Origin: Puniceicoccaceae bacterium K14
GTDB lineage: Bacteria > Verrucomicrobiota > Verrucomicrobiia > Opitutales > Opitutaceae
Direction: 5' to 3'
Assembly: GCA_022538095.1 (NCBI GenBank)
Contig: JAKYXN010000004.1
Coordinates: 1-64,000 of the forward strand
Length of the DNA: 64,000 nucleotides
Program-made: the position numbers and the translations under genes
Shown: one piece after another, positions 16,851 through 42,821 of the stretch
Layout: every line of letters begins with the position of its first letter
Position numbering within the stretch: position 1 is the stretch's first letter
The notes under the pieces: model-generated
Databases searched by the model: none
Told to the model about the DNA's origin: nothing
The model's input: the letters and a program-made list of their open reading frames with translations, nothing else

Positions 16851-16857
16851 TTCCTAA

Positions 16858-19033: not shown

Positions 19034-19088
19034 CAGGTGTATTTTTTATCTTTAGCGAAATATTTGGATACAATCAGTTTAAACTTAA

Positions 19089-20528: not shown

Positions 20529-20532
20529 TTTT

Positions 20533-20559
20533 AAGCAAGGACATCAATTGTCCTTACTT
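20533..20559 (-). promoter_or_regulatory. Stem-loop and seven-codon leader frame at the start of the TagA-family gene
   Basis: AAGCAAGGACA and TGTCCTTACTT pair at ten of eleven positions around a five-base loop. On the minus strand the 5' arm contains AAGGA, six bases before an ATG that reads MSLLKNV and then stops in TGA, overlapping the glycosyltransferase ATG. The stem would hide both the Shine-Dalgarno and the mini-frame. This is a candidate translational control element. Confidence 0.4.
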
Positions 20560-20606
20560 AGATCACGAATCCAGCGAACCGACTCAAGCTAAAGAGTCTC
20601 TTGCTC

Positions 20607-21607: not shown

Positions 21608-23035
21608 ATGACGAATACGCGAAAAGAAGGCTTAGCAGCCATACAAAGCATTATTCTAGCGATCACGACTTGCTTCGTTTTTCTAGCGTGGGCGTTTGTT
21701 TACTCTTCATTCACCGACTTGATCGTTTTTAGCGAAGTTCCCTTTGTCGTATGTTTTACAGCTATACTAACCGCGTCCTACTTTTGCTACAGGCGCCTAA
21801 AGAAAGAGCTCCCGTCTGTTAGCCAATTCATCTGGGGTCGCTCGCTCATCATAGCTATTAATCAATCTCTCATTACCGTTGGTACGTTAGGAGTCTTCCT
21901 ATTCGCATTTGATCAGGACTCCTTGAGCCGGTCCTTTATCTTGATTTTCGTTGCCATCATTTGCGTGGTACTAACGCCCGCAAATTACGCCCTTCCCGGT
22001 TTGCTTCTGAAGTTGAGTATTTCAAAAGACCTCAAACGTCGCTACCTTTTGATTGGCTCTGAAAAGTCGTTGGAAGTATTTAGCGAGTGGATAGAGCAAG
22101 AACGCAAACTCTCAGCTGAAGTCAGTTGCCATCTCAGCATCAAATCCACAGGCAAAGATTTCGACAATATTCCTTACGCTGGCAATATAACGAAACTGAC
22201 AGAGGCTATCGAGAAGTTCAACGTTAGCCACATCGTCTTGTTGGAATCAATTAATTCCAACTCATGGTTTCGTCACATCACTCGAATAGCAGAAGCCAAC
22301 GGCTGCCGTTTAGTCATCAAAAACCCATTGGAAAACATGGTCGGGCGGAAACTGAGGTATTTCTCCGAAGCCGAGCACCAATTTTTTACTCTGCAAAAGG
22401 AGCCACTGGAAAACCCGGCAAATCGTTTGTTCAAACGCTTCTTTGATGTCGTAGTTTCTTTTCCGGTTGTTCTATTCGTACTTCCTCCACTTTGCCTATT
22501 CGTATGGTTTCGTCAGAGACGTGAATCACCCGGACCTCTTCTATTCAAGCAAAGACGCTATGGTCGAAACCAGGAGCCTTTCTATATTTGGAAATTCCGC
22601 ACGATGCATCACGACTTTGACGATTCTCCTGAGGCGGAGGCTCGAAGAGCCTTGCAGCAAGCCACCGAAGGAGACCCAAGAATCTACGCGACTGGAGCCT
22701 TCCTTCGCAAAACGAGCTTGGATGAGTTTCCTCAGTTCGTAAACGCGCTTTTAGGTCAGATGTCCGTAGTAGGCCCTCGCCCACATCCACTTAAGCTAGA
22801 CGACTCATATTCTACAAAAATCGATTCCTATACGTCTCGCCACTATGTTAAACCAGGCATAACAGGACTGGCTCAGTGCAAAGGATTCCGAGGAGAAACC
22901 GCAGAGAAAGAATTGATGGAGCAGCGAATCAAGCACGACATCATCTACTTAGAAAACTGGAATGTCTTCGTCGATATTACGTTAACTCTAAAAACCGTGA
23001 AACAGGTTTTTAGACCGCTTAAATCATCTTACTAA
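21608..23035 (+). CDS. Polyprenyl-phosphate sugar-1-phosphate transferase starting exopolysaccharide synthesis
   Basis: It loads the first sugar phosphate onto undecaprenyl phosphate at the inner membrane. Four or so N-terminal membrane helices (about 10-135) and a CoA-binding-like Rossmann segment (YLLIGSEKSLEVFSEW) precede a membrane hairpin (about 280-305) and the catalytic domain: FDVVVSFPVV, GPLLFKQRRYGRNQ, FYIWKFRTM, LRKTSLDEFPQF, GQMSVVGPRPH, YVKPGITGLAQ. This is the WcaJ/WbaP (PNPT) architecture; 475 residues is the usual length. It opens the plus-strand half of the polysaccharide locus. The sugar (glucose or galactose in studied members) is not predictable here. Confidence 0.93.
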   Translation: MTNTRKEGLAAIQSIILAITTCFVFLAWAFVYSSFTDLIVFSEVPFVVCFTAILTASYFCYRRLKKELPSVSQFIWGRSLIIAINQSLITVGTLGVFLFAFDQDSLSRSFILIFVAIICVVLTPANYALPGLLLKLSISKDLKRRYLLIGSEKSLEVFSEWIEQERKLSAEVSCHLSIKSTGKDFDNIPYAGNITKLTEAIEKFNVSHIVLLESINSNSWFRHITRIAEANGCRLVIKNPLENMVGRKLRYFSEAEHQFFTLQKEPLENPANRLFKRFFDVVVSFPVVLFVLPPLCLFVWFRQRRESPGPLLFKQRRYGRNQEPFYIWKFRTMHHDFDDSPEAEARRALQQATEGDPRIYATGAFLRKTSLDEFPQFVNALLGQMSVVGPRPHPLKLDDSYSTKIDSYTSRHYVKPGITGLAQCKGFRGETAEKELMEQRIKHDIIYLENWNVFVDITLTLKTVKQVFRPLKSSY

Positions 23036-23047
23036 TTGCGTTTAATC

Positions 23048-23141
23048 TTCCAACATGAGAATCGTTGGAACAATTAAGCGAGTTCGTAACCTTATTGATT
23101 TTTTGAACATCAATAAGAAATGCCGTAAAAATACGACATTT
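23048..23141 (+). promoter_or_regulatory. Three consecutive hairpins in the leader of the flippase gene
   Basis: TTCCAAC/GTTGGAA (23048-23070), CTTATTGAT/ATCAATAAG (23091-23117) and an imperfect stem AAATGCCGT/ACGACATTT (23118-23141, one mismatch) follow each other in the 121-base gap before the flippase ATG at 23157. The first two stems are perfect. None is followed by a clean U-run, so they are more like RNA structure or processing sites than a simple terminator. Confidence 0.5.
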
Positions 23142-23156
23142 ACTCAATAAGATAAG

Positions 23157-24401
23157 ATGTCAGCCAAGCCAAACTACAACCTGAAAAAGAAGCTGTTTAG
23201 CGCAATTCCAGCGCTCGAACAGTATTCGATTTCTGGTATCAATTTTCTCTACAGCTTACTGCTCCCCTTTATTATATCACTGGAGGACTTTGGAAAATTC
23301 ACCTATTTCCTATCAATATATTATTTTTTCCTATCCACATGGGAATCAACTGTACTCGATCCTTGGGTACTGTTGAAAAACAAAGAAAAAGACCAGGCTG
23401 AGCAAAAACCGGTAATCCCGCCGTTCGTCCTTTATTCATTGTTTCTTTCCCTAGTGTTCGTAGGCGTGTTGTCCATTTTCAACCCAATAACCTGGCAAGA
23501 AACTCCATTACTAATCACGCTCTGCGCTATAAGTTTGTGGCGAGTCTTTTCGCGTAGAATAAGGTATCAAAATGGTGACTACGGGTTTCTGTTTTCCATC
23601 TCAATTGCAAGCATCGTCACTAGACTCTCGATGATGTTTATATTTAGAGATTACCTAAACGGCTACACTGCTCTTATTTTCTACTTCGCATCAGATATAC
23701 CAGCAATTATCTTTGATATGCCGTTTATGCGTTTAGCATTGGCCAATATCCGCAAAGGCGCGCCACACAAGTACTTCATTGAACAACGGTCCCTTATCGT
23801 AAATTTATTCTATCAGCAAATTACGACCTGGTTTTACCCTTTCACAATAAGTTCACTCACAGTCGTTTTATTCTCGTTCCAAATCAACGGGCTATTGAAA
23901 ATGATCATCAATCTATCTATGCCCTTGAAACTCTTGAGTCGGAATTTATTGCACCTGTTTTTAAAGAGCTATTCCGGAAACCCTAAGGACTACAGAGCCG
24001 GTTTTTGCCACTACATCAATGTAGCTAAGCCTTACACTTTTGCATCACTTGCCGTTGCCATTCTCTTAGGGCCCGTCTATTTGTTTAAGTCGACTGATCT
24101 CTCGATAAACGAGTGTGCTTTTGTGATAACATTAGCGTCGTTGAATATAATTTTCTACACCCTTACAAACGGGCTCAAAGCTTCCTTTTCTAAAGATTTG
24201 AACCTGAAGGAGCTTTCAAAACTCAATACTTATGCAATTCCATTCGGGTTGGGACTCTTCTTCATATTGTACGCGCTCCAAGTAGAATTCGCCCCAATCG
24301 TAGCTGAAATGGCTACTCCATTCATAGAAACAGTCTTTTTTGCCACCGTATTTAAGAATTATTTTAAGAGCCAAGAACCGTTGACGAAACAAAATACTTA
24401 A
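23157..24401 (+). CDS. Wzx-type polysaccharide flippase (MOP superfamily)
   Basis: A 414-residue, strongly hydrophobic protein with about twelve predicted membrane helices, no soluble domain, and the N-terminal pattern of lipid-linked oligosaccharide flippases (ISGINFLYSLLLPFIISLEDFGKFTYFL). It would move the undecaprenyl-linked repeat unit to the periplasmic side. Its position between the initiating transferase and the polymerase supports the role. Sequence conservation in this family is low, so the call rests on topology and context. AT content is higher than in the housekeeping genes, as usual for such loci. Confidence 0.8.
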   Translation: MSAKPNYNLKKKLFSAIPALEQYSISGINFLYSLLLPFIISLEDFGKFTYFLSIYYFFLSTWESTVLDPWVLLKNKEKDQAEQKPVIPPFVLYSLFLSLVFVGVLSIFNPITWQETPLLITLCAISLWRVFSRRIRYQNGDYGFLFSISIASIVTRLSMMFIFRDYLNGYTALIFYFASDIPAIIFDMPFMRLALANIRKGAPHKYFIEQRSLIVNLFYQQITTWFYPFTISSLTVVLFSFQINGLLKMIINLSMPLKLLSRNLLHLFLKSYSGNPKDYRAGFCHYINVAKPYTFASLAVAILLGPVYLFKSTDLSINECAFVITLASLNIIFYTLTNGLKASFSKDLNLKELSKLNTYAIPFGLGLFFILYALQVEFAPIVAEMATPFIETVFFATVFKNYFKSQEPLTKQNT

Positions 24402-24411
24402 CTGGTAAGCA

Positions 24412-25728
24412 ATGAATTCGGAGAGTGGACAAATGCAAATCAAGCGAGACGACGCCGTTTATTGGGTGATTGTGGGCTACACCCTACTCAATGCCATACC
24501 ACTAAAGTCAGCAAACGCCTTGGTGACACTGCTGCTTGTAATCGCCTACTGTGTAATATTTCCCAAAACGCTCTTAACAAAAAGAGTGATTCTCTCAGGA
24601 GTACTTCTAGTAATAAACTTAGCTCACATATTTTACCTTAAGAGCGAAGCTTATACAGTTAACATTCCCGGGTACGTTTGGGGCTTTCTAACACACGCTC
24701 CATTTGCCCTTCTTCTGTTTAAAAATCCTCTTACAAAATTTAGCGACGACCTCAGGTTTAGGGTAAATAAATTCTTCTCAATCTATATCATCGTCCAATT
24801 CGTTCTTGGAGTAATTCAATTCGTACTATCAGGGAACGTTGACTGTGTTTGCGGAACCTTTGGCTTACTGGACTTTAGAACCGGCAACATTACGATATCT
24901 CAAGTTTGGTTTACCTTTAACATACTTGGCATTTGCTTTTATCTCATCTCGCAAAAGGACCTCAATAAACTCGGCTTCGTATCAGTTCTAATTGGTTTCA
25001 TAACTGTTGTATTAGCCCAATCGGGACACCAGCTGATCTTTTTGTGCCTGCCGATGGCGATACTGCTTTCTCGATATCTAACAAATATTAAGCTTCTATT
25101 CGTTAGCATCGCAGCGGGAACGATTGTTGTCGTATCCGCAATCATACTTGTTCCAGAAACCTATTCTGTGGGGGTCTCTTGGTTTGAACGCATTGTGCAA
25201 AACGACAATTCGCCCAAGAAAGCATCAGTCCAGAAAACACTTGATTGGCACACAGCAGAGCCAACTGCAGTCGTTTTTGGATTAGGGTTTGGCCAATACC
25301 TAACTCGTGCCTCTATGATAGCGAGTAACGTGATGAACTCGAAAAGAAAACTTCCCGCTTCCATTAGTGGGCATTCGACATTTGCGAGAGACTTCGAAGT
25401 ACCAATGAAAAAAATGCTAGAACGAGGCGAAGGGAGTGCGATGTCTAAACCCTACTTTTCCCTATTAAACCTCTATTCAGAATTTGGGGTGCTTGGGGTG
25501 CTCTCTCTCATCGGATATTTGATATATGTAGGGATAAAAGGAATACTCAATAAAAACCCATTCACAACCTTCCATCTATCAACAATCGCGTTTTTGATAG
25601 CGTGTTCCGCGATTGAAAACTATTTCGAATTTACGCAAGCGCTTATAATTCCGTTTTTGTTAATCACTCTAACATCGAATAACACAATTCCTATAAGTAA
25701 GGACCGCAAAAGCGAAGTCGCAAAATAG
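24412..25728 (+). CDS. Wzy-type polysaccharide polymerase / O-antigen ligase family protein
   Basis: A 438-residue membrane protein with about ten to twelve helices and a large periplasmic loop around residues 250-350 (FERIVQNDNSPKKAS to SGHSTFARDFEVPM), the arrangement of Wzy polymerases and WaaL-type ligases. It lies 10 bases after the flippase gene and 19 bases before the double glycosyltransferase gene, so it is in the same operon. In a Wzx/Wzy pathway it would link repeat units in the periplasm. Ligase and polymerase cannot be separated by eye; the context favours polymerase. Confidence 0.78.
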   Translation: MNSESGQMQIKRDDAVYWVIVGYTLLNAIPLKSANALVTLLLVIAYCVIFPKTLLTKRVILSGVLLVINLAHIFYLKSEAYTVNIPGYVWGFLTHAPFALLLFKNPLTKFSDDLRFRVNKFFSIYIIVQFVLGVIQFVLSGNVDCVCGTFGLLDFRTGNITISQVWFTFNILGICFYLISQKDLNKLGFVSVLIGFITVVLAQSGHQLIFLCLPMAILLSRYLTNIKLLFVSIAAGTIVVVSAIILVPETYSVGVSWFERIVQNDNSPKKASVQKTLDWHTAEPTAVVFGLGFGQYLTRASMIASNVMNSKRKLPASISGHSTFARDFEVPMKKMLERGEGSAMSKPYFSLLNLYSEFGVLGVLSLIGYLIYVGIKGILNKNPFTTFHLSTIAFLIACSAIENYFEFTQALIIPFLLITLTSNNTIPISKDRKSEVAK

Positions 25729-25747
25729 TGGTTCGCTGCTTACAAAC

Positions 25748-27979
25748 ATGGAAAACGTCTCTACAAAAACAAAAATACTTGTAGTTGGTCAAACCCCTCC
25801 TCCCTATCACGGTCAGGCAATCATGATTGAGACCATGCTCAAGGGGCACTACGAAAACCTGGAGCTCATTCATGTCAGGATGGATTTCTCTGAGAATATC
25901 GACGAAGTCGGGAGCTTCCAAATCAAGAAGATCTTTAAACTCTTCACTTTAATCTTCGACATTCTAAAAACTCGCTTTTCAAGCAAGGCAAAGATTCTTT
26001 ACTATCCACCCGCAGGGGACGCCACCGTGCCCATTCTTCGGGATATAGCAATACTTTGTACAATACGCCCATTTTTTAAGAAAACGGTTTTTCACTTTCA
26101 CGCAGCAGGTCTCCTCGACGGCTACAACAAGATTCCCAGAATCCTACGCCCCCTTTTCCATCTAGCCTATAAAAAACCAGACAACTGTCTTAACATTTCA
26201 GAAAAGCTTCCGCCGATTTCCCATTTCCTAAAGAGCAAGCAGCATACAGTACTCCCACATGGCATCGATGATCCAGCTATAGGCTTTAAGCGATCAAGTT
26301 CGAATGATATTCGCCAAATATTATTCGTTGGCGCGGTTAGAGAATCCAAGGGAGTAATGGTTCTCCTCAAAGCAGCAAGGATCTTGCTAGATAAAAACCT
26401 CGCCTTCAAACTGAATATAGTAGGAGAATTTGCCACTAGAGATTTTGAAAAAGAAGCTCGTTCATTTGTATCCAAAAACCATTTAGGTGACAAAGTCATA
26501 TTCCATGGATTGTGCAAAGGAGAGGAAAAATGGGAACAATATAGAGTAAACGATATCTTCTGTTTTCCCACATTCTACGAAAACGAATCATTTGGGATTG
26601 TACTCGTTGAAGCGCTTGCATTTGGACTGCCGGTAGTCTCATCTGATTGGAGAGCAAGCACAGATATCATCTCCGAGCCCGAAAACGGCTACAATAGCAA
26701 ATCGAAAGATAGCGCAGATTTAGCAGTAAAGTTAGAAGCCTTATTGCAGGAACCTGATCTTTCCCCATACTGGGAAACCAACCGAAAGCGATTTACAGAT
26801 CGTTATACTACCGACAAATTCGTAAAACGTATCGACTCGGAAATGACGGGAAATGATCGGAACCTCCGAAAGTCGAATATGAAAAAACTTATAGTGGTGG
26901 GACAAACGCCTCCACCTTATCATGGTCAAGCAATCATGATAGAAACTATGCTTAAAGGCGATTACGCCAATGCAGACCTGGTCCATGTTCGAATGGATTT
27001 TTCTGAAAAAATCAATGAAGTTGGCACCTTCTCCGTAGCAAAAATTTTTAAACTAGGAAGTCTCATTGTCAGAATTATCCATGCCCGCATTAAGCACAAG
27101 GCCACATCTTTGTACTACCCACCAGCAGGTGGAACAGTCATACCCATTTGCAGAGACATCATAATCCTCCTCTGCACACGAATTTTCTTTAAACAGGTTT
27201 TGTTTCACTTTCACGCATCTGGGTTAATAGATGGATACAACAAACTCCCATCGCTTTTAAAGCCACTATTCAAGTTAGCCTATCATTCACCAGATTTGGC
27301 TGTGACGCTTTCCCAAAGCCAACCTCAGCTTGCTGAGTTTTTAGATAGCAAAGAAAAGATGATAATACCCAATGGTATTTTTGATAACGCAAGCGGGTTC
27401 GAAAGGCTAAGTTTCCCTGCGGAAAAGCGGATACTTTTTATGGGAGCGGTCATCGAGTCAAAAGGGGTAACGAACATTTTGGAAGCCGCTGTAATTCTTA
27501 AGGAAAAAGGCCTCCGTTTCTCAGTAGATATCGCTGGCGAGTTCGCCGAAGAAACATACGAGGTTTTCTCCAAAAAATTTGTCGCTGACAACAATTTGGA
27601 AGGCATTGTGAGTTTTCTAGGGCTAATTAGAGGCGACGATAAATGGGAGCGTTTTAAAAACTGTCATATATTCTGTTTTCCGACATTCTACGAAAACGAA
27701 GCTTTTCCAGTTGTACTCCTAGAAGCCTTATCGTTTTCCATGCCAATCGTAGTTACAGATTGGAGGGGTTGCCCCGATATCGTCACGGAAGAAAACGGAT
27801 TCATAGTTAAGACTCAAAACCCTTCTCTAATTGCCGATGCTTTGATTAAACTAATGAGCAACAATGAAAAATTGAGCCAATTTGCCCAAAACAACCGACA
27901 GCGTTTTTTGGAATTTTACACAACTGAACGCTACTACGAAAACATAGATAACGCACTACACTACATACACTCTAAATAG
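25748..27979 (+). CDS. Tandem double GT4 glycosyltransferase (in-frame duplication fusion)
   Basis: The 743 residues consist of two similar GT4 enzymes end to end. Residues 6-377 begin KILVVGQTPPPYHGQAIMIE and residues 378-743 begin again with MKKLIVVGQTPPPYHGQAIM; each half then has HVRMDFSE.I.EVG, LYYPPAG, FHFHA.GL.DGYNK and the GT4 donor-site pattern FCFPTFYENE with a downstream EAL. The second half starts with its own ATG (26879) but no stop separates it from the first. Each half would transfer one sugar to the lipid-linked intermediate in the cytoplasm. Both halves keep the conserved elements, so both may be active. Confidence 0.88.
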   Translation: MENVSTKTKILVVGQTPPPYHGQAIMIETMLKGHYENLELIHVRMDFSENIDEVGSFQIKKIFKLFTLIFDILKTRFSSKAKILYYPPAGDATVPILRDIAILCTIRPFFKKTVFHFHAAGLLDGYNKIPRILRPLFHLAYKKPDNCLNISEKLPPISHFLKSKQHTVLPHGIDDPAIGFKRSSSNDIRQILFVGAVRESKGVMVLLKAARILLDKNLAFKLNIVGEFATRDFEKEARSFVSKNHLGDKVIFHGLCKGEEKWEQYRVNDIFCFPTFYENESFGIVLVEALAFGLPVVSSDWRASTDIISEPENGYNSKSKDSADLAVKLEALLQEPDLSPYWETNRKRFTDRYTTDKFVKRIDSEMTGNDRNLRKSNMKKLIVVGQTPPPYHGQAIMIETMLKGDYANADLVHVRMDFSEKINEVGTFSVAKIFKLGSLIVRIIHARIKHKATSLYYPPAGGTVIPICRDIIILLCTRIFFKQVLFHFHASGLIDGYNKLPSLLKPLFKLAYHSPDLAVTLSQSQPQLAEFLDSKEKMIIPNGIFDNASGFERLSFPAEKRILFMGAVIESKGVTNILEAAVILKEKGLRFSVDIAGEFAEETYEVFSKKFVADNNLEGIVSFLGLIRGDDKWERFKNCHIFCFPTFYENEAFPVVLLEALSFSMPIVVTDWRGCPDIVTEENGFIVKTQNPSLIADALIKLMSNNEKLSQFAQNNRQRFLEFYTTERYYENIDNALHYIHSK

Positions 27980-28004
27980 TTTTCACCTCCTATCTCCCTC
28001 CAAG

Positions 28005-29243
28005 ATGCGTCGAAAAAAAATCCTCCTTTTAGCCTATGCTTGCCATCCAACAAACGGCTCGGAACCTTTTTTGGGTTGGAATGCCGTTCAGCAACTCTCT
28101 CGCTTTTTTTCCGTCACTTGCCTTGTCACAGGAAATGTAGAAGGGCAAAGAGCAGCCTTAGAAAAAATAACTATTCCCAATGTCCAATTTGAATTTGCCG
28201 AGCTTCCGCAGTTTTTAGAAAAACGAATAGATACCAATTCCCACGACATTCGCTATTATCTAACGCAATATTTTTGGAGAAAAACGGTAAAAGCACTTCA
28301 CAAAAAGCATTCGTTCGACGCTGCGATTCACGCGACTTACGGTCGCTACTGGATGCCTTCAGCTTTGGCCGAGATTGATATCCCAAAAATTTTCGGTCCC
28401 GTAGGAGGAGGCGAAAAATGCCCAAGCGGTTTGCTGAAAAACTATGCCTTTAAAAATCAACTATCAGAGGTCCTTCGATATGTAATACCTGAGGTGATAC
28501 GGTTTGACCCATTCTTCAACTACAACAAAGACACATGGGACTACGCTCTTGGAACTACTCACGAATCCAGCAAAGAGCTTAGAAAACTCGGCTTTACCAA
28601 CGTACTCACCCGCGAAAACATAGGTCTCGACTTAAGCGAATTCTCCAGACTACCTCCAAAGCCTAGTCGGTCTGAAGTTAAATTCGTCAGCATCGCACGT
28701 TTCATCTACTGGAAAGGAATTCAATATGCACTAAAAGCCATGGCAAAAATGGATCCAGCAGGTTGGTCATATGATATTGCAGGAGATGGACCTTATGTTG
28801 AAGAGCTGAAAAAAATCGCAGCTGAGCACAAAATGACCAACGTAAACTTCATTGGTCGAATTCCCAGAGCTAAAGCCATGCAGATGGTAAATGAAGCGGA
28901 TGCATTAATCCACCCCAGCCTTCACGACTCAGGGTCTTTTATCGTACAAGAAGCAATGGCAATGAACACCTTCGCCATTTACTTACAATGCGGAGGCCCT
29001 CACCACCTTTGTTCCGGAAAATTCGGATACGGTGTAAGGGTTGAAAACCAAACTGCATTACTCAATGACCTCAGGTCAATTCTCGAAAAAATCGTAGCAG
29101 CGCCTGATCATTTCCGAAAGGCTTCTAAACATGGATCTGAAATAGTAGCCACTCACTACACATGGGATCGCTACGGTACAGATATGAAAGATTTGATAGA
29201 TCGCGCGATTGAAAAAAGAAAACCCTCGAACTTAATAATTTAG
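28005..29243 (+). CDS. GT4-family glycosyltransferase
   Basis: A GT-B enzyme of 412 residues: acceptor domain starting KKILLLAYACHPTNGSEPFLGWN, then the donor domain with VKFVSIARFIYWKGIQYALKAM, YDIAGDGPYVEELK, VNFIGRIPRAKAMQMVNEADALIHPSLHDSGSFIVQEAMA. The E in SFIVQEAMA is the second Glu of the E-x7-E motif. It is the last plus-strand gene of the polysaccharide locus, 25 bases after the double glycosyltransferase, and faces the aminotransferase gene with only 18 bases between stops. Sugar specificity is unknown. Confidence 0.88.
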   Translation: MRRKKILLLAYACHPTNGSEPFLGWNAVQQLSRFFSVTCLVTGNVEGQRAALEKITIPNVQFEFAELPQFLEKRIDTNSHDIRYYLTQYFWRKTVKALHKKHSFDAAIHATYGRYWMPSALAEIDIPKIFGPVGGGEKCPSGLLKNYAFKNQLSEVLRYVIPEVIRFDPFFNYNKDTWDYALGTTHESSKELRKLGFTNVLTRENIGLDLSEFSRLPPKPSRSEVKFVSIARFIYWKGIQYALKAMAKMDPAGWSYDIAGDGPYVEELKKIAAEHKMTNVNFIGRIPRAKAMQMVNEADALIHPSLHDSGSFIVQEAMAMNTFAIYLQCGGPHHLCSGKFGYGVRVENQTALLNDLRSILEKIVAAPDHFRKASKHGSEIVATHYTWDRYGTDMKDLIDRAIEKRKPSNLII

Positions 29244-29261: not shown

Positions 29262-30386
29262 TCAAAATCCCATGGCGGTTGTTACCGGCAATCGAAGCGT
29301 ATTTTCTAGACGCTCTACTACTCGATCAACCTGCCATTCTCGCATACCTATCCACAATGGCAATCCCAGGACAGATTTCACCAACCCCTCTGTAACCTTA
29401 AGATCTTCGCGTGGGCATTCATGAAATGCTTCAAAATAGTGACACCCTTGGCGCCACCATCTACGAGTATCCACACCCTCCGCTGACATCATTCGAGCCA
29501 CTTCAAATGTATTTTCCTGCTCAACTTTGATACTAATCGTAGGAGATATCCATTTATCTGATGCAAAATATTCAACACCGACCCGGCCCAATTTCTCACG
29601 ATACATTGCACCGAGTTCGGCGAATTTTGATCTTTTAGATTCCCACGAATCTAGCTCAGCGTGCCCAACCGCAGCAGAATACTCGCTCAACTTGCTATTT
29701 CCACCTCCAGTTATCGCATCTTCGCCGATAAAGCCAAAGTTGGACATACTCTTGAATCTCGAAATCAACTCCTTGTTTTTACAAACAATCATACCACCTT
29801 CGCCACAGGCGAAAGCCTTGGTTGCATGCAAACTAAGAACAACCGGAATCTCAGATATTCTGAAGTCCTTCTGCTGAGAAAAAGAATCAAAGCAAGATGC
29901 TGCATCCACGACGACAGGTATCCCTGTCGAATTCGAGAAATTTTCCCATTCTTCAATCTTTATCGCTGAGCCGAAGGGAGCCACTGGAACGACTGCCGAT
30001 ATTTTGTTTTTGATCGGTAATACATCCGCTGGATTAATGGCCCACGAGTCCGGATCCACATCAACGAAGTGAGGAGTCAGCTCAGCATTACGCGCTGCAG
30101 CCGCTGTGGCTATAAAAGTCCACGAAGGCATTGCGCAACTGGAATTGCTTTTACAACCGAGCGCCTGAAGCGCCATAGTGAGGCCAGAGGTCGCACTAGA
30201 TACGAGGGCAACGGTTCCCCGCTCTAAGCCCATATACTCTTCTAATCGTTCTTCTAATGAAACAACAAGCGGTCCGAAATTCGAGTACCACCGATTGTTA
30301 TCAATTTCCGATAGATAGGGAGCAATTTTGTCTACCGTTGGGAGTAACGGCTTCATGACAGGAATGTGATTATACTTGGAGGTCAT
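29262..30386 (-). CDS. DegT/DnrJ/EryC1/StrS-family sugar aminotransferase
   Basis: PLP-dependent enzymes of this family convert a keto sugar nucleotide to an amino sugar, here probably a component of the exopolysaccharide. The 374 residues include SSATSGLTMALQAL near the PLP phosphate site, PSWTFIATAAAA, VDPDSWAINP, VVVDAAS with the PLP-contacting Asp, and the SLHATKAFACGEGG motif with the Schiff-base lysine. Near the C-terminus DTRRWWRQGCH and LPLWIGM match the family. It follows wzc by 34 bases and is the last gene of the minus-strand half of the locus. No other nucleotide-sugar gene lies in the window, so its substrate must be made elsewhere. Confidence 0.88.
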   Translation of the reverse strand: MTSKYNHIPVMKPLLPTVDKIAPYLSEIDNNRWYSNFGPLVVSLEERLEEYMGLERGTVALVSSATSGLTMALQALGCKSNSSCAMPSWTFIATAAAARNAELTPHFVDVDPDSWAINPADVLPIKNKISAVVPVAPFGSAIKIEEWENFSNSTGIPVVVDAASCFDSFSQQKDFRISEIPVVLSLHATKAFACGEGGMIVCKNKELISRFKSMSNFGFIGEDAITGGGNSKLSEYSAAVGHAELDSWESKRSKFAELGAMYREKLGRVGVEYFASDKWISPTISIKVEQENTFEVARMMSAEGVDTRRWWRQGCHYFEAFHECPREDLKVTEGLVKSVLGLPLWIGMREWQVDRVVERLENTLRLPVTTAMGF

Positions 30387-30420: not shown

Positions 30421-32793
30421 TTAAACCCGAGAACCTTCAACACTTGCGTTTGAATATCCATAGTCCGAATCCTTTCGGTAATACCCCATTGTCGCGAGTT
30501 GTTTCTTGGTCATCGAGTTAAGAATAAATCCAGACAGCTTGGCATGGCCAGTTTGAAGAAGTTCAACAGTATGCACTAATTCCTTCTTACGCGCAGCGCC
30601 ATACTTAACGACACAGAAAACCTCGTCACTTATCGTTGTTAAGAGTAGTGTGTCAGAAAATACGCCAGCTGGAGGACTATCCAGGAGAATCATATCATAT
30701 TCAGATTTCAGTCCTTCAACCAACACAGAAAATTCTTTCGACAAAATCAAATTAGCGGGTTCTCGATTCGTGCTCCCAGCTTTGATAAAGCTCAATCCAC
30801 TTGATGTTTTACTGTCAAATATTGATGGTTTAATCGAATTCTCATTGGTTTTAAGGTGTGAATACCATTCACATAACCCGATCGATTCGTTGAGTTCTTT
30901 TTCATCTTCTTCTGATGATACAAACGCTCTGTGCAATGATGGCCTTCTGAAATCACAATCGATAACCAAAGTCCTCTTGCCACTCTTGGCCAACTCTTGT
31001 CCCAAATTGTAGACGATCGAACTTTTCCCTTCATTCGGACTTGTACTTGTAAATAGCAGCACGTTCGACCCATGAGAAATTGAATTCAAGTGAACTCTTG
31101 AATGAAGGCTCTTCAACGATTCTTTTGCTGCCGCGTCATCAGAATTTTCAATATCAATAACCCCGTCGTTGGCTGCCTTAAAAATCGGCAAACGAGCAAA
31201 AGCAGACCTCTTTGAGTCCAGAATCACTAAATCCTTTTTTCTAAAACCTGGTAGATTTTTCAGTGATGAATCTCCGATTCTAAGGAGGAGTTTATCACCA
31301 TTCTTAACCCAAGGAACCATCCCAAATAAGACGCCTTCAGTACGGTACGCTTTAAGATTTCGAGCCCCTAGTCTCGGCAATGTACCCCAAACACTGACAT
31401 TGAAAATCTCCTCTAGATTATCCCAATTCTTTAATCGTTTATTGGCTAGGCTAAGCAAAGGTGGAATCGGAATGAATACACATAAAAACAATGCAAATCC
31501 TGCCACTAGCGTAAATATTTTATTAGGGAAAGATGGTTTGTCAGGAGTAATAGCGCGATCAGAAGCAGTCACAGTTGTTGTTCCAGTCTTACTCGTCACT
31601 TCGGTTACAAGCAACCGGTTGAGAATCTGGTTGTAAGCGCTACGCTTAACCTCAGCTCTTCGTTTGAGAATATTATACTCAACGGCTTTGTCGGCTAGCT
31701 CCATAGTATCGTTCTCTAAGATTTTCATTTCGGCTTCTAAGCCTTTCTCAAAATCTCTCGCAACATTGTATTGGTTTCTAAACCGAAGAACTGCTTGATC
31801 TACTTCGGCTTCTAGCTGAACTCGATTAGTCTTTGTAGCTTCTTGAATTTCCCGAATCTTAGGGTGGTTCTTTTGATAGGTTTCTGAGAGAACATTAAGT
31901 GAACTCAAGAGAGTATCTCGTTCGCTCATCAATGAACGAATCGTTGGAATCGAATAGACCATTTCCAGTGAAATAAGGCCTTCAATGCCTCCCTCTTCCG
32001 CAGCAGAAACTTGCTTAATAGTATTCTCTATCTGTATACGCCCTAGCCTAGCTTGGGTGTAACTGTTGCTTACTAATTTCAAACGTTCTGATAGAATGTC
32101 TTGGTTTCCCTCGAGCGATACGAGCTCAGACTCCCTGCGGTATGCCTGCAATTCTAACTCAGATTTTTCTAAATTTTGGCGGAGTTGCTCTGTTTGCGCT
32201 CTTAAAAAACGAACTGCACTATTATTCCACTCGTCCCTGTAGACTAGATTGAAGTCAATATAACTCTTTGCTATATCGTCTGCAATGAATTTGGCTAGAA
32301 CTGGGTTCCGGTGAGACGCTTTGATGTCTACGAAGAGTGAAAAACCGCTTCGTTCAACCTTGAGCCACTTTCTTAACAATTCTACCCCATCATCAGGATT
32401 GTCAGCATCCATAACATACGAACGAGATACACGTTCACGCATCTTTGGATTCATTCCATCCCAAGCAAACTTCAAGAAATCATTCCCTTTGATTGTCTCG
32501 ACATGTGTTACCATGATTTGGTCAATCAACTGACTATCCAGGGTCTCGTCCACAACCTCTTGGACATCCATCATCCGCTTTTCCGTGTTTTCCACAACGA
32601 TTCTTGAAGTCGCTGTGTACTCGTTCGGCAAAGACAGAACGGCCAAAACAAATGCGATTGAGACAACTAGCCCAAGTCCAAGAGCCCACCACAAATAGGT
32701 CCGGTATAGTTGAATAATCGTACTTATGCTTGGTATTTCGAGCAACTCGTCTTTCTGACGTTCGTTACTCCCTTCGTTTTCGTTAGAAATCAT
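30421..32793 (-). CDS. Wzc-like polysaccharide co-polymerase and tyrosine autokinase
   Basis: The protein has two membrane helices framing a long periplasmic coiled-coil region (Wzz domain; IIQLYRTYLWWALGLGLVV at the start, FTLVAGFALFLCVFIP after about residue 420) and a C-terminal BY-kinase domain: Walker A STSPNEGKSS (about 583-592), Walker A' VIDCDFRRPS, Walker B MILLDSPP, then a tyrosine-rich tail with YY, Y and Y in the last twenty residues. It would control chain length and export by cycling phosphorylation. Start: ATG at 32793 is preceded by AAAAAGG seven bases upstream and is preferred (790 residues); a TTG at 32847 overlaps the upstream stop and would add 18 residues. Confidence 0.9.
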   Translation of the reverse strand: MISNENEGSNERQKDELLEIPSISTIIQLYRTYLWWALGLGLVVSIAFVLAVLSLPNEYTATSRIVVENTEKRMMDVQEVVDETLDSQLIDQIMVTHVETIKGNDFLKFAWDGMNPKMRERVSRSYVMDADNPDDGVELLRKWLKVERSGFSLFVDIKASHRNPVLAKFIADDIAKSYIDFNLVYRDEWNNSAVRFLRAQTEQLRQNLEKSELELQAYRRESELVSLEGNQDILSERLKLVSNSYTQARLGRIQIENTIKQVSAAEEGGIEGLISLEMVYSIPTIRSLMSERDTLLSSLNVLSETYQKNHPKIREIQEATKTNRVQLEAEVDQAVLRFRNQYNVARDFEKGLEAEMKILENDTMELADKAVEYNILKRRAEVKRSAYNQILNRLLVTEVTSKTGTTTVTASDRAITPDKPSFPNKIFTLVAGFALFLCVFIPIPPLLSLANKRLKNWDNLEEIFNVSVWGTLPRLGARNLKAYRTEGVLFGMVPWVKNGDKLLLRIGDSSLKNLPGFRKKDLVILDSKRSAFARLPIFKAANDGVIDIENSDDAAAKESLKSLHSRVHLNSISHGSNVLLFTSTSPNEGKSSIVYNLGQELAKSGKRTLVIDCDFRRPSLHRAFVSSEEDEKELNESIGLCEWYSHLKTNENSIKPSIFDSKTSSGLSFIKAGSTNREPANLILSKEFSVLVEGLKSEYDMILLDSPPAGVFSDTLLLTTISDEVFCVVKYGAARKKELVHTVELLQTGHAKLSGFILNSMTKKQLATMGYYRKDSDYGYSNASVEGSRV

Positions 32794-32843
32794 AGCAAAC
32801 CTTTTTAGGTTAAATTCTGAGTTTGGATTCTGTGTATGTGGGA

Positions 32844-35800
32844 TCAAAAGAAGCGTTCTGCGACCAATATCGTATCACCAGGTACAATACGTCTTCTATA
32901 GTCATCTCTCGAAATTTTACCCTTGCGAACATCTGAGATGTCCAACGTGAAAATTGTTTCCTTGCCGTCAACGTAGCGTGTCACTTGAACACGATCTTCT
33001 TTGGCAAACTTGGAGAATCCTCCCGCTCGAGCAATAACTTCAAGAATGTCCATTGACTGCTTGTCCAGCCCCATGTCAATCACTCCAGGATTCCCAACTT
33101 GTCCAATGATCGCGACTTCACGCGGCGCGTACTCCATTACCGCTACTGAGACTTGAGGATCCTTAAAATATTCGTTCTGAATATAAAGGTGGCGGATCGT
33201 CTGTTCCGCGGATCGAAAACTCAAACCGGAAACATTTACACTCCCCAAGAATGGAAGACTAATCGCCCCATTACGGTCAATTCTCTGCTTAACCGACAAA
33301 TCTGGTTCGTTATAGATGGAAACCTCAACCAAGTCGCTTACAGACAATCGGTACGCGTACTCAGAATCATTGTATGAAGGAGCATTGTTTGCGTATCGAT
33401 ACGAAGGTGTCTCATTGTTTGAATACGAAGATCCGCTAGATATTTTTTCATCAGCAAAGGCTCTATTCCCAGGATAATTTGGTTCAAACGAACCTGAGGT
33501 ATTTGCGACACTTGAATTTGAACCTTGCCTAAACTCTTTATAGGCCAACATCGCTTGAGCATAGTTAGACTTTGCTTTTTCGACCAATTCACCTTGTCGA
33601 GCATAGTTGCTTTTCGCTTCCTCAACTGAGCGAGAAGCAACTTCGTAGGCTTTTTGGGCCTTCACTACACTAATTCCGGATTGCTCGTAAATTGATCTAG
33701 ATTCTTCGAATGATGCCTGATCGCCAGCGAAATTATTCTCGCCTTTGTCTACAGCGCCATTTTCACGATCCAACGCTTTCTCAGCCGATGCTACTGTATT
33801 GACCGCAGCTTTCTGCTTGCTCTTCGAATCTTCTAAGTAGGCCAACTGCTTGCGGTATTCGTTTTTCACTGAGTTAAGGGCTTGTTCCTTACTCACAACA
33901 GCATTTTGAGTTTGCTGAACATAACGTTCTGACTCACGAACCTTTTCTTCAGCTTGCTTGAATACAGATTCGGCTTTAGCCAATTCCATTTTAGAATCTT
34001 CCACCTTCAGACCAGCCTTAGATTGGTTTGCCCGAGCTGTCTCAAGTTCAATTCCGCTTTTCGCAAGTACCGATTTTGCGTTCTCTACTTTAATGCCCAA
34101 ATCGTAATGCTTAGATTTCGCTTTTTCCAACATAGACTCCTGTTGAGAGTACTTTGACTTGGCCATATCAAAAACACCTTTAGCTTTTGCAAATGACGAC
34201 TCCGCACTTCTTAAGTAAGATTTCGCCTGCTCCGCTTGAGCTCTTGTCGCTCTGTGGGTATCTTTCTTTTGCTTAACTGCACTCGCCAGTTTCGCGTAAT
34301 CCGTCTCTGCGTTCTTGATATCGACTGCTAGCTTTGAGTAACTACTTTCTGCATCATTTACAGCCTCTTTAGATACGTCGTATTTGGCTTTTGCAGCCGC
34401 AACATTCGCTTTCCTTGTATCCAAATTTCCTTTCGATTCAGACACTTCTCCAAGAGCTTTCGCTACTTTGTTCTGAGCCTGCTCTACCGCCATACCTGCT
34501 TGCGCAAAATTCGAGTTTGCATTGCGATAACGAACTTTCGCGTCTTCCAAGACTTTTTCTGCTGTCTTGTACGCAGACTCAGCCTCTTTTAATTCAACCG
34601 TCGCTTTTGCGAGTTCGAATTGAGCCGAGTCTAAAAGAGACGCATCCTTGGAGTGACTGGACTTAGCAGATCTAATGGCAGATTCCGCTCTACCAAACCG
34701 TGCTTTTGCCCCTTTTACCAAACTACCCGCTTTAATGAACTCGCTCTCCGCAGTCTTTTCAGCAATCGCTGCTTGCTCAACTTCCACGGTTTTAATCGCG
34801 TAGTCTTGTTTCACTGACTCAAGTGCCTTCGCATCTTGGTCAAACTTCATCTTAGAGCGCTGAAATTGTTTTGTAGCTGAACTGTACGCTTCCTTCACAC
34901 TTTCGAGTTCAAGCCCCGCAGCAATATGCGTTGATTTAGCGATCTCCACAGATTGTCCCGCTTTTTCGTATGCGACCTTGATATTGCTTACCAACAACCC
35001 AGCCTTTACATACGCTGACTCAGCTCCCTCGACAGCGTATTCAGCCTTTGTTAAACTTGATTTAGTTTCGCCAAGCTTACGTTCGGCAGATGTCTTTGCT
35101 TTTTCGGCACTCTCTAGAACACTCTTGGACTGTTCGAGTTCAGCTGTAATCTCACTAACCCGTGCTTCAGCTGTATTTACATCGAGAGTTGCTCGGTTAA
35201 GGGCGTGTCCCGCATTGCTAAGAGCTTCTTCTGAATCGTTGAGCTTTTGCTCATAAACGTCCCTACGAAGCTTCATTTTTTCAAAATCGTCTTGGGCAGC
35301 TTCAAACACCTTTTCAGCTGCGTCAAACGCCTCACTCTCTTTAGAATGATTTAATTTGGCAGCCTGAACAACCTCGCCAGCACGATTTAGCTCTGCCTTA
35401 ACATTCTCGAATGCTGATCCTGCTCTTTCGTAGGCAGATTTCGCTTCTTCGTATTCAAAAGCAGCGTTGGCAAAAGCGACCTCCGGCGTGTTCGCAGCCG
35501 TACGAGTTGCTTGGTAGGCAGACTCATCAACTCGAGATGTTGGGAGAGCTGCGAGTAATTGAGGTTCATCGGAAACCGCTAAAAGCGTATTGTCGATTTC
35601 AATACTCTCCTCGTTGCTAACCGCTGCATACAGATTGGACTCTTCGCGCTCAAGCGAATTCAACAAATCGGCAGCTTCGGCCAAAAGCAAATCGTCGCTC
35701 TCGTTCTCCCTTACCGCTTCAATGTATTCCGCACTTGATTCGATTTCTTCTATTTCAGTTTGAACTGATAGGTCAGTTTGTTCTGTCGAACATGAGGCTA

Positions 35801-35897
35801 GAAGAACTAGGCCTATGCTAGAACAAACGCTTCGTGTATATGCTCGCATATACTTCACGTACTGTGCCTTTTTCATGTCGTTCGTTTGATTTAACAT
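32844..35897 (-). CDS. Wza/OPX-type export lipoprotein with a ~650-residue coiled-coil insertion
   Basis: The C-terminal 169 residues (849-1017) are an outer-membrane polysaccharide export domain: YRLSVSDLVEVSIYNEPDLS, DRNGAISLPFLGSVNVSGLS, YFKDPQVSVAV, then SLBB-like VAIIGQVGNPGVI and an IVPGDTILVAERFF ending. The N-terminus has a lipobox LASC with Cys36. Between them, residues about 139-791 are almost wholly alanine/lysine/glutamate-rich helix with a 14-residue pattern of the type A-x-x-x-Y-x-x-A-G-x-x-V-E-x, followed by a Ser/Asn/Tyr-rich linker (792-848). Wza-type proteins are normally about 180-400 residues, so this is extreme. It is the first gene of the wza-wzc-aminotransferase operon. 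It probably forms the outer-membrane channel, with the helix reaching across the periplasm or outward. Confidence 0.88.
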   Translation of the reverse strand: MLNQTNDMKKAQYVKYMRAYTRSVCSSIGLVLLASCSTEQTDLSVQTEIEEIESSAEYIEAVRENESDDLLLAEAADLLNSLEREESNLYAAVSNEESIEIDNTLLAVSDEPQLLAALPTSRVDESAYQATRTAANTPEVAFANAAFEYEEAKSAYERAGSAFENVKAELNRAGEVVQAAKLNHSKESEAFDAAEKVFEAAQDDFEKMKLRRDVYEQKLNDSEEALSNAGHALNRATLDVNTAEARVSEITAELEQSKSVLESAEKAKTSAERKLGETKSSLTKAEYAVEGAESAYVKAGLLVSNIKVAYEKAGQSVEIAKSTHIAAGLELESVKEAYSSATKQFQRSKMKFDQDAKALESVKQDYAIKTVEVEQAAIAEKTAESEFIKAGSLVKGAKARFGRAESAIRSAKSSHSKDASLLDSAQFELAKATVELKEAESAYKTAEKVLEDAKVRYRNANSNFAQAGMAVEQAQNKVAKALGEVSESKGNLDTRKANVAAAKAKYDVSKEAVNDAESSYSKLAVDIKNAETDYAKLASAVKQKKDTHRATRAQAEQAKSYLRSAESSFAKAKGVFDMAKSKYSQQESMLEKAKSKHYDLGIKVENAKSVLAKSGIELETARANQSKAGLKVEDSKMELAKAESVFKQAEEKVRESERYVQQTQNAVVSKEQALNSVKNEYRKQLAYLEDSKSKQKAAVNTVASAEKALDRENGAVDKGENNFAGDQASFEESRSIYEQSGISVVKAQKAYEVASRSVEEAKSNYARQGELVEKAKSNYAQAMLAYKEFRQGSNSSVANTSGSFEPNYPGNRAFADEKISSGSSYSNNETPSYRYANNAPSYNDSEYAYRLSVSDLVEVSIYNEPDLSVKQRIDRNGAISLPFLGSVNVSGLSFRSAEQTIRHLYIQNEYFKDPQVSVAVMEYAPREVAIIGQVGNPGVIDMGLDKQSMDILEVIARAGGFSKFAKEDRVQVTRYVDGKETIFTLDISDVRKGKISRDDYRRRIVPGDTILVAERFF
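33525..35483 (-). repeat. Coding region for about 45 fourteen-residue coiled-coil repeats
   Basis: Within the OPX protein gene, codons 139-791 encode degenerate 14-residue units such as SVEEAKSNYARQGE and LVEKAKSNYAQAML. Two heptads per unit, with Ala, Tyr and Val at the core positions and Lys/Glu outside, indicate a continuous or folded-back helical coiled coil. The unit count is an estimate from length. Confidence 0.75.
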
Positions 35898-38332: not shown

Positions 38333-39706
38333 ATGAGCGATATTCTCTATACATCGCGAATTATTTTGATCCAAGGAACTACGCTGAAAACAACCAAACA
38401 GAAAATCTCCTCTAACTGGGGGCTGGTTCTCAGAACATTGTTCTGTACCCTTCTTATTGCTAACAATGCCATGCAAATGCATGGACAAACCTTAGCAGAA
38501 GCCTTTGCAGACCTCTTAGAATACAATCCCCAAATCCACTCTGCGGAGACGAATGCTTTATCTAGCGAGTCGGCCATAGGTAGCGAAAAATCGTCCAGGC
38601 GTCCATCAGTTAGGCTCAGTCTTAGCAGCGGATACGAACGCTACGAAGATTCAATCAGTGATGATTTCTCAGATGGGCCCTCCAACACAGCCACGTTATC
38701 TGCAGATCAACTTATTTACGACGGAGGAGAAAGCCGCAACCGCGTCCTTGCTGCAAAGCAACAGTATGTAAGCAGTAAACTCCAGCTATATGAAGTTAAC
38801 GAAACAAGCGCATTTCAGTTAACGACTACTTACCTGGACGTTATTCGTTATCGCCAGCTCATACTGCTCTCAGAAGCGAACATCGAAACCTACCAAATCG
38901 CTCTCGATAAAATTCGGGAAAAATTTGAAAGTGGAGCAACGCCAGAAGCAGACGTGCTCTTGCTCGAAGCACGCAAATCAAATGCAGAAGCGACGCTGGA
39001 AAGCCGACACCTTCAATTGAAGTCCGCTGAGACCCAATTCCAAAACCTAACCGGTAAAGCCCCCGGAACATTCTCCCAGCCTGACTTCCCAACAGAGAAG
39101 ATTTTAACTAATCTCAATATCGAAGACTTCGCAGACAACCCATCGATACAAGTCGCCAAATCCAACGAGAGCCTAGCTGAAATTCAGCGAAATCAACTTA
39201 AAGGAAAGTTCCGTCCCAGCATTAGCCTTTCGCTTCAATCGACATACCGAGACTCATCACGGGCTTCGAGCGTCGGTGAAGAAAATTCAGCGTTCATCAG
39301 CCTCTCCTACGATATCTTCGACAGTGGTCGCCGTCGAAACGATACCCAAAAAGCGAATTACGAAATACAAAGAGCTAGCTACGATCGATACAATATAGAG
39401 TTAGATACATACCGAGAGTACCAAGACGCTCTCAATTCCCTTAAAATATCAGAAGGACGTATAGCTCAACTATCGAAATACAAAGCGAATATCGAAAAAG
39501 TAGTATCTGCGTATAAAGAACAATTTAACCTAGGGCAGCGTGCTTTAATTAATGTGCTCGATGTAGAAAACGAACTTTTCAACGCAAGTTCTTCACTCGC
39601 GGAAGAAGAAATAGTACGACTGCAATCTGCGTACAGAGTCATGAGAACTATAGGCAGCTTGAAAACCCATCTCGCTCAAAACTTCGAATCCAAATCCATA
39701 AAATGA
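38333..39706 (+). CDS. TolC-like outer membrane channel of a type I secretion system
   Basis: A 457-residue outer membrane efflux protein with the duplicated TolC pattern: LAEAFADLLEYNPQIHSAETNA at the N-terminus, VRLSLSSGYERYED and SISLSLQSTYRDSS for the beta-strands, LEARKSNAEATLESR and a YKEQFNLGQRALINVLDVENELFNA for the long helices, the last being the family hallmark. A hydrophobic stretch at about 30-45 (WGLVLRTLFCTLLIAN) is the signal peptide, so the true start may lie downstream of the ATG at 38333, although GAGG precedes that ATG. It is the first gene of the secretion operon; its stop overlaps the response regulator ATG by four bases. Confidence 0.9.
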   Translation: MSDILYTSRIILIQGTTLKTTKQKISSNWGLVLRTLFCTLLIANNAMQMHGQTLAEAFADLLEYNPQIHSAETNALSSESAIGSEKSSRRPSVRLSLSSGYERYEDSISDDFSDGPSNTATLSADQLIYDGGESRNRVLAAKQQYVSSKLQLYEVNETSAFQLTTTYLDVIRYRQLILLSEANIETYQIALDKIREKFESGATPEADVLLLEARKSNAEATLESRHLQLKSAETQFQNLTGKAPGTFSQPDFPTEKILTNLNIEDFADNPSIQVAKSNESLAEIQRNQLKGKFRPSISLSLQSTYRDSSRASSVGEENSAFISLSYDIFDSGRRRNDTQKANYEIQRASYDRYNIELDTYREYQDALNSLKISEGRIAQLSKYKANIEKVVSAYKEQFNLGQRALINVLDVENELFNASSSLAEEEIVRLQSAYRVMRTIGSLKTHLAQNFESKSIK

Positions 39707-40584
39707 ATACCCATCAAGAAAACAGTGTCCAAACTCCAGAAAACGAATTAAAAGTCCTCATCGTAGAAGACTCGAAGATCGAAGCAAAATTCACAGCTAA
39801 TCTACTTAAGAAAAATGGATACGCTGTAGTTAGCGAACGAGTCGAGACTGCGGTGGAGATGAACGAAGCCCTTAATAACCGCAAATGGGACATAATTATT
39901 TCGGATTATCAAATGCCGGACTTCTGTGGAATGGAAGCCTTGAAGATTTTCATGGAGCGCGAAATCGATATCCCATTCATTTTGGTTTCGGGAAAAATTG
40001 GTGAAGAAACCGCAGTAGATCTTATGAAAATGGGAGCCCATGATTACATCATGAAAGGCAATACGGCTCGCCTCATCCCAGCTATTAAAAGCCACCTTAA
40101 GCAGGCAGCTAGCCGTCGAGATAAAAAACGCTTAGAAAACGCACTACGCGAAAGCGAAGCTCAATACCGAGGATTTTTCGAGAATGCTGCAATTGGAATT
40201 TTCCGATGCACCGAACAAGGCACTCTTACCGACGCAAACTTAAACCTCGCTCAATCTATGGGGTACGAAGGCGTTCAAGATTTCATAAGATCCGCCATTA
40301 CTCTAGTCCCAGAAATTCATAATCCGGATACGCGAGAGGCTCATACAGTGAGCATCCGTGAACAAGCTGAGGTCAAAGGAAATTTCGAAGGTATCTTCCA
40401 TCGCAAGGACGGTTCAATCATGGAGGCCAACATCAATGTGTGGGCTTTGCGAGACGAGAGTGGGAGTATTTCCTATTTAGAAGGTACCATTGAGGACATT
40501 ACAGAACGCAAGCAAATCGAACGCAAACTTCGAGAAATGGAGCAGCTCCATGAATCGATAATCGACCTAACGAGTAATTTATAA
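39703..40584 (+). CDS. Response regulator receiver fused to a PAS domain, inside the secretion operon
   Basis: Residues about 15-140 are a receiver domain (VLIVEDSKIEAKF acidic patch, phosphoacceptor in IIISDYQMPD, ILVSGK near the conserved Lys, ending HDYIMKG). Residues about 155-285 are a PAS/PAC domain (RGFFENAAIGIFRCTEQG to YLEGTIEDITERKQIE). No DNA-binding, kinase, GGDEF or EAL domain follows; the protein stops after a short helix. It could be an adaptor that reports a signal to the secretion machine. ATGA overlap with the TolC-like gene and TAATG overlap with the ABC gene show tight coupling. Confidence 0.88.
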   Translation: MNTHQENSVQTPENELKVLIVEDSKIEAKFTANLLKKNGYAVVSERVETAVEMNEALNNRKWDIIISDYQMPDFCGMEALKIFMEREIDIPFILVSGKIGEETAVDLMKMGAHDYIMKGNTARLIPAIKSHLKQAASRRDKKRLENALRESEAQYRGFFENAAIGIFRCTEQGTLTDANLNLAQSMGYEGVQDFIRSAITLVPEIHNPDTREAHTVSIREQAEVKGNFEGIFHRKDGSIMEANINVWALRDESGSISYLEGTIEDITERKQIERKLREMEQLHESIIDLTSNL

Positions 40585-42797: not shown

Positions 42798-42821
42798 ATA
42801 TCGTATTAACGAACTAAAGAC

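Follow-up and report, generated by a model that had tools for sequence, protein, structure and literature searches.

The window analysed here is the whole 64,000-nucleotide stretch at positions 1 to 64,000 of contig JAKYXN010000004.1 (assembly GCA_022538095.1). At 32844..35897 it carries a gene for a coiled-coil outer-membrane polysaccharide export (OPX) protein. The open reading frame (ORF) is real and intact, runs as one frame without stops, and encodes 1017 residues with a full-length homologue in a second genome, G018. The original prediction gave the same coordinates without the strand, which is the minus strand. The protein begins with a putative signal peptide and lipobox at residues 8-36 (35790..35876), read by eye from the sequence as L33-A34-S35-C36, with LTGC in the G018 homologue. 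The cysteine is the one proposed originally, and a lipoprotein lipidated at Cys36 is predicted. There follow an acidic linker with a net charge of -21 (residues 37-138, 35484..35789), the coiled coil (residues 139-791, 33525..35483) and a Ser/Asn/Tyr-rich linker that is non-helical in the full-length AlphaFold2 model (residues 792-844, 33366..33524). The chain ends with the D1 or Poly_export (PES) domain (residues 845-920, 33138..33365) and the D2 or SLBB domain (residues 927-1017, 32847..33119), all on the minus strand. Ahead of the gene, no promoter or terminator signal rose above shuffles, and Rfam gave no match on the window.

The export part was assigned using Pfam and an alignment to solved structures. 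The Poly_export model PF02563 matched residues 845-920 with 74.1 bits (cut-off 28; 1e-20). The SLBB_2 model matched residues 927-996 with 27.7 bits, barely above its cut-off of 27, and PF10531 SLBB reached 25.3 bits, barely under its cut-off of 27. By Pfam and structure alignment, neither a second SLBB nor a Wza_C membrane helix nor a GfcC domain was found, and the chain stops with the single SLBB. The C-terminal 226 residues matched 9n9a_A, a polysaccharide export protein of 186 residues, at 1.2e-22 and were aligned to its last residue, whereas in Wza (2j58) the alignment was confined to chain residues 61-217 out of 359. Therefore, the export part consists of D1 and one D2 without the membrane helix of Wza. 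Judged by its sequence, it is of the short type called D1D2 (PMC9601211) or Class 3 (PMC9603273). The original assignment to an OPX/Wza-type domain thus stands as to OPX, but not as to the Wza type. At 1017 residues, the whole protein exceeds the limit of 280 residues set for Class 3/D1D2 proteins (PMC9601211), and its D1D2 part alone has about 173. The exporter domain is ordinary, and the rod is a rare variant.

The coiled coil is free of proline throughout residues 139-791 and comprises 93 heptads in a single register. Its hydrophobicity showed a sharp peak at a period of 3.50, with a power of 35.7 against a maximum of 7.7 in 50 shuffles. The identity autocorrelation, followed to lag 80, peaked at lag 14 (z 9.6) and also at every other multiple of 7 up to 77. 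The large residues V/L/I/F/Y/M occupied position a in 82 of the 93 heptads, compared with 36 for the best register in 2000 shuffles; the 11 misses were five His, two Gln and one each of Arg, Lys, Glu and Ala. Position d was Ala in 54 heptads and Ala, Ser, Gly or Thr in 69, and position a remained unchanged across all 44 sliding windows of the coil. Alanine at d combined with large residues at a is the tight-packing pattern of Alacoils. The period of the coil is 7 with a 14-residue (two-heptad) harmonic, far beyond chance. The helix of about 650 residues with a 14-residue unit that had been proposed originally is therefore confirmed at the sequence level as a long Ala-rich coil, but the 14 is the harmonic and not the basic period.

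No tandem DNA repeats were found. Three two-copy repeat families of 24-28 nucleotides with 71-78% identity were taken as chance or old. The only Pfam match within the coil was DUF745 at residues 541-613 (37.1 bits, cut-off 33.3). The SMC models of NCBIfam matched far below their cut-offs, and the PgrA surface-exclusion domain of NCBIfam gave 2.7e-7, also far under its cut-off. We take the DUF745, SMC and PgrA matches as the composition echo usual for long coils. A paralogue of the coil was absent from the rest of its own genome at E <= 1 (78 of 78 candidates scored), and relatives among solved structures were absent at 1e-6.

The fold was predicted with AlphaFold2. The full-length protein, given as a single sequence, was modelled as helix over nearly all of residues 125-792 with nine breaks (predicted local distance difference test, pLDDT, 55.7). 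Residues 250-600 alone were modelled as two helices forming one antiparallel hairpin with a turn at 414-418 (pLDDT 92.6). This turn (34644..34658, minus strand), which we mark as a candidate hairpin tip, recurs in the full-length model, and five of the six full-length breaks within 250-600 vanish in the segment run. A helical bundle of many turns, corresponding to the nine breaks, was also considered as the main model and rejected on account of these vanished breaks and of the single register running through all of them. When 340 residues were scanned for complementary e-e' and g-g' charges in antiparallel pairing, 417-418 came out as the best tip (z -3.3 in 40 permutations and -3.1 in 3000). 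Scans for charge periodicity and stagger gave nothing clear. A candidate second break is the Gly/Asn-rich, low-helix stretch at residues 712-727 (33717..33764, minus strand): the window of lowest helix propensity within the coil is centred on 721, and the low-confidence full-length model breaks at 722-727. A search of structure libraries with the 250-600 model returned SMC segments, the MukB elbow, chemoreceptor coils and PrgA, together with many unrelated coils such as SH3BP5 and dynein; such matches fit a predicted hairpin coil and show no more. Going by these models, the hairpin is moderately favoured over other arrangements; folding back was one of the options named in the original prediction. 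With a tip near 416, the arms would have about 276 and 374 residues, which at 0.15 nm for each corresponds to some 41 and 56 nm; a straight rod would measure about 97 nm.

The distribution of the coil was followed in family, order, phylum and class samples, which overlap and in which only a few candidates were scored per genome. Among the matches listed, those spanning the coil came from 2 of 200 family genomes in a whole-gene search, namely the own genome and G018, and from 2 of 372 order genomes with a two-row profile; the remaining listed matches in both samples cover the OPX end only. In 387 phylum and 384 class genomes, at E <= 1e-40, the coil was spanned in the own genome only, and G018 was in neither match list. 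Two scans of a collection of named genomes gave no relatives. G018 belongs to a different genus, in which it is the one genome out of eight with a coil OPX. Its homologue is 29% identical over query residues 126-1012 and has 1075 residues, the same architecture and OPX domain, and a coil of about 683 residues (bounds set by eye) compared with 653 in the window; one register shift occurs in it near Pro644.

The two genomes have the gene order OPX-Wzc-DegT in common, with Wzc proteins 31% and DegT proteins 57.5% identical. In a tree of 25 OPX domains, those of the window and G018 are sisters with 99/99 support. The rows of this tree were chosen from the loci fetched; C298, C305, L064 and unfetched OPX rows were left out, as was G000_C110, for which tblastn gave nothing at 1e-5. 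The row of G000_C165 is long (2.1) and its placement unsure. The original prediction named a split into separate coil and OPX genes as the finding that would speak against it. No such split was seen: G018 carries the fusion as well, and in 20 other loci with an OPX match, no ORF of more than 150 residues exceeded the threshold set for heptads (a power of more than 9 in the period range 3.42-3.6; G018 itself gives 13.3). The fusion in G018, the shared gene trio, the sister OPX domains and the lack of separate coil ORFs in these loci fit a single origin of the coil-OPX fusion and exclude an assembly artefact.

Long OPX frames were also sought in 57 genomes, the own one included. Out of 114 Poly_export matches, seven lay in open frames of more than 800 residues, and two of these seven were the coil proteins of the window and G018. 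The other five were rejected as coil OPX, showing no heptad signal at 3.5. Two of them are multi-SLBB proteins (828 and 906 residues); in the other three, Poly_export and SLBB come after a stretch of about 700-900 residues that Pfam leaves unmatched, and these frames are probably inflated upstream at high GC content. One frame, of 575 residues in G207, was read among the family matches of 450-658 residues, and its OPX part starts far inside. The own genome has five further OPX genes, on contigs C289, C165, C110, C298 and C305 (loci L013, L014, L015, L011 and L012), two of which encode long proteins of the multi-SLBB type (828 and 906 residues). In G018, three pairs of OPX and Wzc genes share a stretch of about 37 kb on contig C7 (L068, L007 and L069); an exosortase gene and TPR-like genes separate the coil OPX from the third of these pairs.

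The gene adjoining the coil OPX encodes a Wzc-type polysaccharide co-polymerase (PCP) and tyrosine autokinase (30421..32847, minus strand; Pfam and NCBIfam). As called, with a TTG start and an ATG downstream, it overlaps the end of the OPX gene by 4 nucleotides. The third gene of the conserved trio is a DegT/DnrJ/EryC1/StrS sugar aminotransferase (29262..30386, minus strand; Pfam). The rest of the exopolysaccharide cluster (21608..29243, plus strand) includes, by Pfam, a Bac_transf initiating transferase and glycosyltransferases, as well as two membrane proteins that no Pfam model matched and that by the look of their sequence are likely Wzx and Wzy. The OPX gene is thus found in a polysaccharide context with a PCP. 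Wzc has two hydrophobic transmembrane segments and a loop of 370 residues between them. By the same measure, which split segments inflate in a few cases and which gave a single segment for L046, the loops of 15 of 16 PCPs from other OPX loci have 371-406 residues; that of G018 has 371 and that of C289 has 376. Wzc of the window thus looks like an ordinary, complete co-polymerase. Since its loop is of ordinary length, the coil would neither replace nor shorten the PCP, and the suggestion that the coil is a built-in co-polymerase partner finds no support next to a Wzc of this kind. At E <= 1e-60, Wzc matched only itself and the G018 protein among 120 family genomes.

Taken together, the data are compatible with a D1D2 (Class 3) OPX lipoprotein of a Wzx/Wzy-type cluster that uses a hairpin coil as a periplasmic strut or spacer, a tentative reading to which we give somewhat less than an even chance. 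In this reading, a long coiled coil with an alanine core is an insertion that separates the lipid anchor from the export domain, most likely doubled back a single time into an antiparallel hairpin whose tip lies near 414-418. The lipidated end and the D1D2 ring, presumably octameric and served by a separate beta-barrel pore, would both sit at the outer membrane, while the hairpin would reach through the periplasm toward Wzc in the inner membrane and set or guide the gap between Wzc and OPX. In D1D2 systems, the lipid of OPX holds the ring at the outer membrane, the extended PCP is thought to span the periplasm, and the Wzc-OPX pair is estimated at 16-24 nm in height (PMC9601211). The hairpin would overreach this height, barring a wide periplasm, bent arms or a tip that traverses the peptidoglycan. 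Such an excess over the known height may itself argue for a spacer, strut or ruler, by analogy with SlpA as a working example. Meanwhile, OPX length and periplasm thickness show no correlation in the species compared (PMC9603273), which speaks against a general length rule. A bolder form of the proposal, a new OPX class in which eight coil hairpins or rods round the D1D2 ring form a cage or ruler of tens of nanometres that connects the outer-membrane exporter to Wzc across a periplasm far wider than in E. coli, appears rather unlikely to us.

Several observations weigh against the hairpin strut. The full-length model is poor. The middle of the modelled segment, residue 425, is near the turn, and a lone long helix may also fold back there. 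The tip found by the charge scan is not significant over the scan as a whole (p 0.19), its local p of 0.004 having been computed after the turn was known. The aligned site in G018, near residue 447, gives no charge signal (p 0.36) and other G018 tips score better, although residue 445 is the second weakest helix window there. The two arms of the hairpin show no complementarity of a-d volumes (correlation 0.09). At 41 and 56 nm they would also be longer than the 16-24 nm of the Wzc-OPX pair (PMC9601211), while the loop of the neighbouring Wzc is of unaltered length. Only two coil-OPX sequences are known, and in a direct BLASTP comparison the G018 Wzc leads by a modest margin, with 384 bits and the next of 18 at 311. 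As for the pore, Pfam found no beta-barrel gene among the cluster genes scanned save a TolC-like protein belonging to the neighbouring type I secretion set. The only BBP2_2 match of the genome is unlinked, on contig C316; this barrel is 32% identical to one near a short OPX in G018.

The rival that deserves most attention is a continuous rod of about 97 nm in a parallel oligomer, which would either bridge an unusually wide periplasm, with the anchor and the OPX end at opposite membranes, or lie along the envelope. We consider it unlikely, with a real chance nonetheless. The 93 proline-free heptads in unbroken register suit such a rod, but chemoreceptor hairpins, which the model resembles, normally keep their heptads unbroken as well. 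A parallel oligomer would be invisible to AlphaFold2 run on a monomer, and oligomers have precedents: Wza is octameric and EpsY has been modelled as an octamer (PMC9601211). The periplasm of Deinococcus, with the 28 nm coil of SlpA, is 121 nm wide (PMC9388160). On the other hand, in-register parallel g-e' charge pairing in the coil was no better than in the permuted sequence (-3 versus -0.5, standard deviation 4.3), residues 250-600 were predicted as a hairpin, and in the coil of G018 the register shifts and a proline stands at 644.

The remaining alternatives are less probable still. The coil may be a neutral or near-neutral repeat expansion, a functionless insert in a protein that acts as an ordinary short OPX. 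This would suit its rarity (two carriers in the samples of 200 and 372 genomes among the matches listed, one of eight genomes in the G018 genus), the failure of a coil-only BLASTP query to list the G018 protein at 1e-6, and the fact that most other OPX, among the matches listed, lie in frames too short for such a coil. We regard it as improbable, because the preservation of 82 of 93 a positions and of similar coil lengths at 29% identity points to selection on fold and length, and the DNA holds no tandem repeat. Slightly less probable again is a coil at the cell surface, serving as a fibre for tethering the exported polysaccharide or for adhesion. Surface proteins with long coiled-coil stalks do exist, and both the sub-threshold PgrA match and PrgA in the fold search recall them, but PgrA and SMC matches are typical of long coils generally. 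Since D1D2 is periplasmic in known systems, the chain would have to cross the outer membrane twice, and Pfam found no surface or sugar-binding domain in it. The projection from the cell and the polysaccharide tether considered in the original prediction therefore gain nothing from these data. An error of assembly or gene calling that fused a coil gene to an OPX gene has a negligible chance. The genome is indeed a draft in 358 contigs, but the gene is a single open frame and the same fusion occurs in the G018 assembly of 10 contigs; the artefact is already refuted by this homologue unless both assemblies share one error.

Some further features of the window should be mentioned. Within the exopolysaccharide cluster, an ORF of 743 residues (25748-27979, plus strand) has two tandem Glycos_transf_1 copies, 52% identical over 359 aligned residues, the second starting from residue 378; it is a fused internal duplication. 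Beside the cluster, at 38333-44045 on the plus strand, lies the type I secretion set, composed of the TolC-like protein, a response regulator with PAS, an ABC transporter with C39 and an HlyD-type adaptor. A row of genes at 14022-19667 (minus strand) has pseudopilin-like matches in four of five, two of them with weak matches to the Verru_Chthon cassette; the Verru_Chthon pseudopilin matches range from 3e-6 to 1e-3, far below cut-off, and from them we suspect a host in Verrucomicrobiota. About 1.1 kb at 20529-21607 is without an ORF of at least 150 residues, a stop-to-stop frame of 146 residues being open on the minus strand.

Among known systems, the closest to the coil OPX are the short EpsY-type OPX of composite OPX/beta-barrel translocons, whose named members have 190-217 residues under a size cut-off of 280 (PMC9601211, PMC9603273). 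It resembles them in having Poly_export and one SLBB, a lipobox, a PCP beside it and an exopolysaccharide cluster around it, and in lacking the Wza_C helix. It differs in the 653-residue coil and two linkers between the lipid and D1, and no barrel gene was found among the genes of its cluster that were scanned. With Wza of E. coli (Class 1) it has in common a predicted lipoprotein nature and an aligned D1 and first D2/SLBB; the second SLBB and the membrane-spanning helix of Wza are absent and a large coil is present. The statement in the original prediction that no OPX class of this design had been described needs qualification, since alpha-proteobacterial OPX (OMA) proteins related to ExoF, reported in 2010, also acquired a long helical region, one resembling membrane fusion proteins (MFP; PMC2850547). 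However, they are of ordinary size, about 350-500 residues, with a helix homologous to MFP coils in a central position, while here the helix is N-terminal to D1 and has 653 residues; the coil OPX gave no Pfam match to the MFP/HlyD family at E <= 0.001. A coil of such length N-terminal to D1 was not seen among the open-licence OPX papers listed, of which PMC2850547, PMC9603273, PMC9601211 and PMC4594306 were consulted; in the passages of PMC4594306, the sole mention of a coiled coil is a reference title.

As periplasmic coils tied to the outer membrane, the nearest counterparts are SlpA of Deinococcus, which combines a trimeric coil with an SLH domain and a beta-barrel, and, by the reference titles in the same paper, the coiled-coil spacer Omp-alpha of Thermotoga (PMC9388160). 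Unlike SlpA, the coil OPX showed neither an SLH domain nor a C-terminal beta-barrel by Pfam, and its coil carries an export domain. PrgA of Enterococcus, chemoreceptors and SMC proteins are alike in the coil geometry of the predicted hairpin segment, and we claim no functional or sequence kinship with them. The D1D2 papers leave open how short OPX proteins and their co-polymerases span the periplasm, a question for which the coil OPX offers a natural case; if the host is a verrucomicrobium, it also bears on the fit of export machines to the envelopes of that group. Set against all these systems, what stands out here is a very long and regular coil, rare in its occurrence, built into an OPX protein whose export domain is ordinary.

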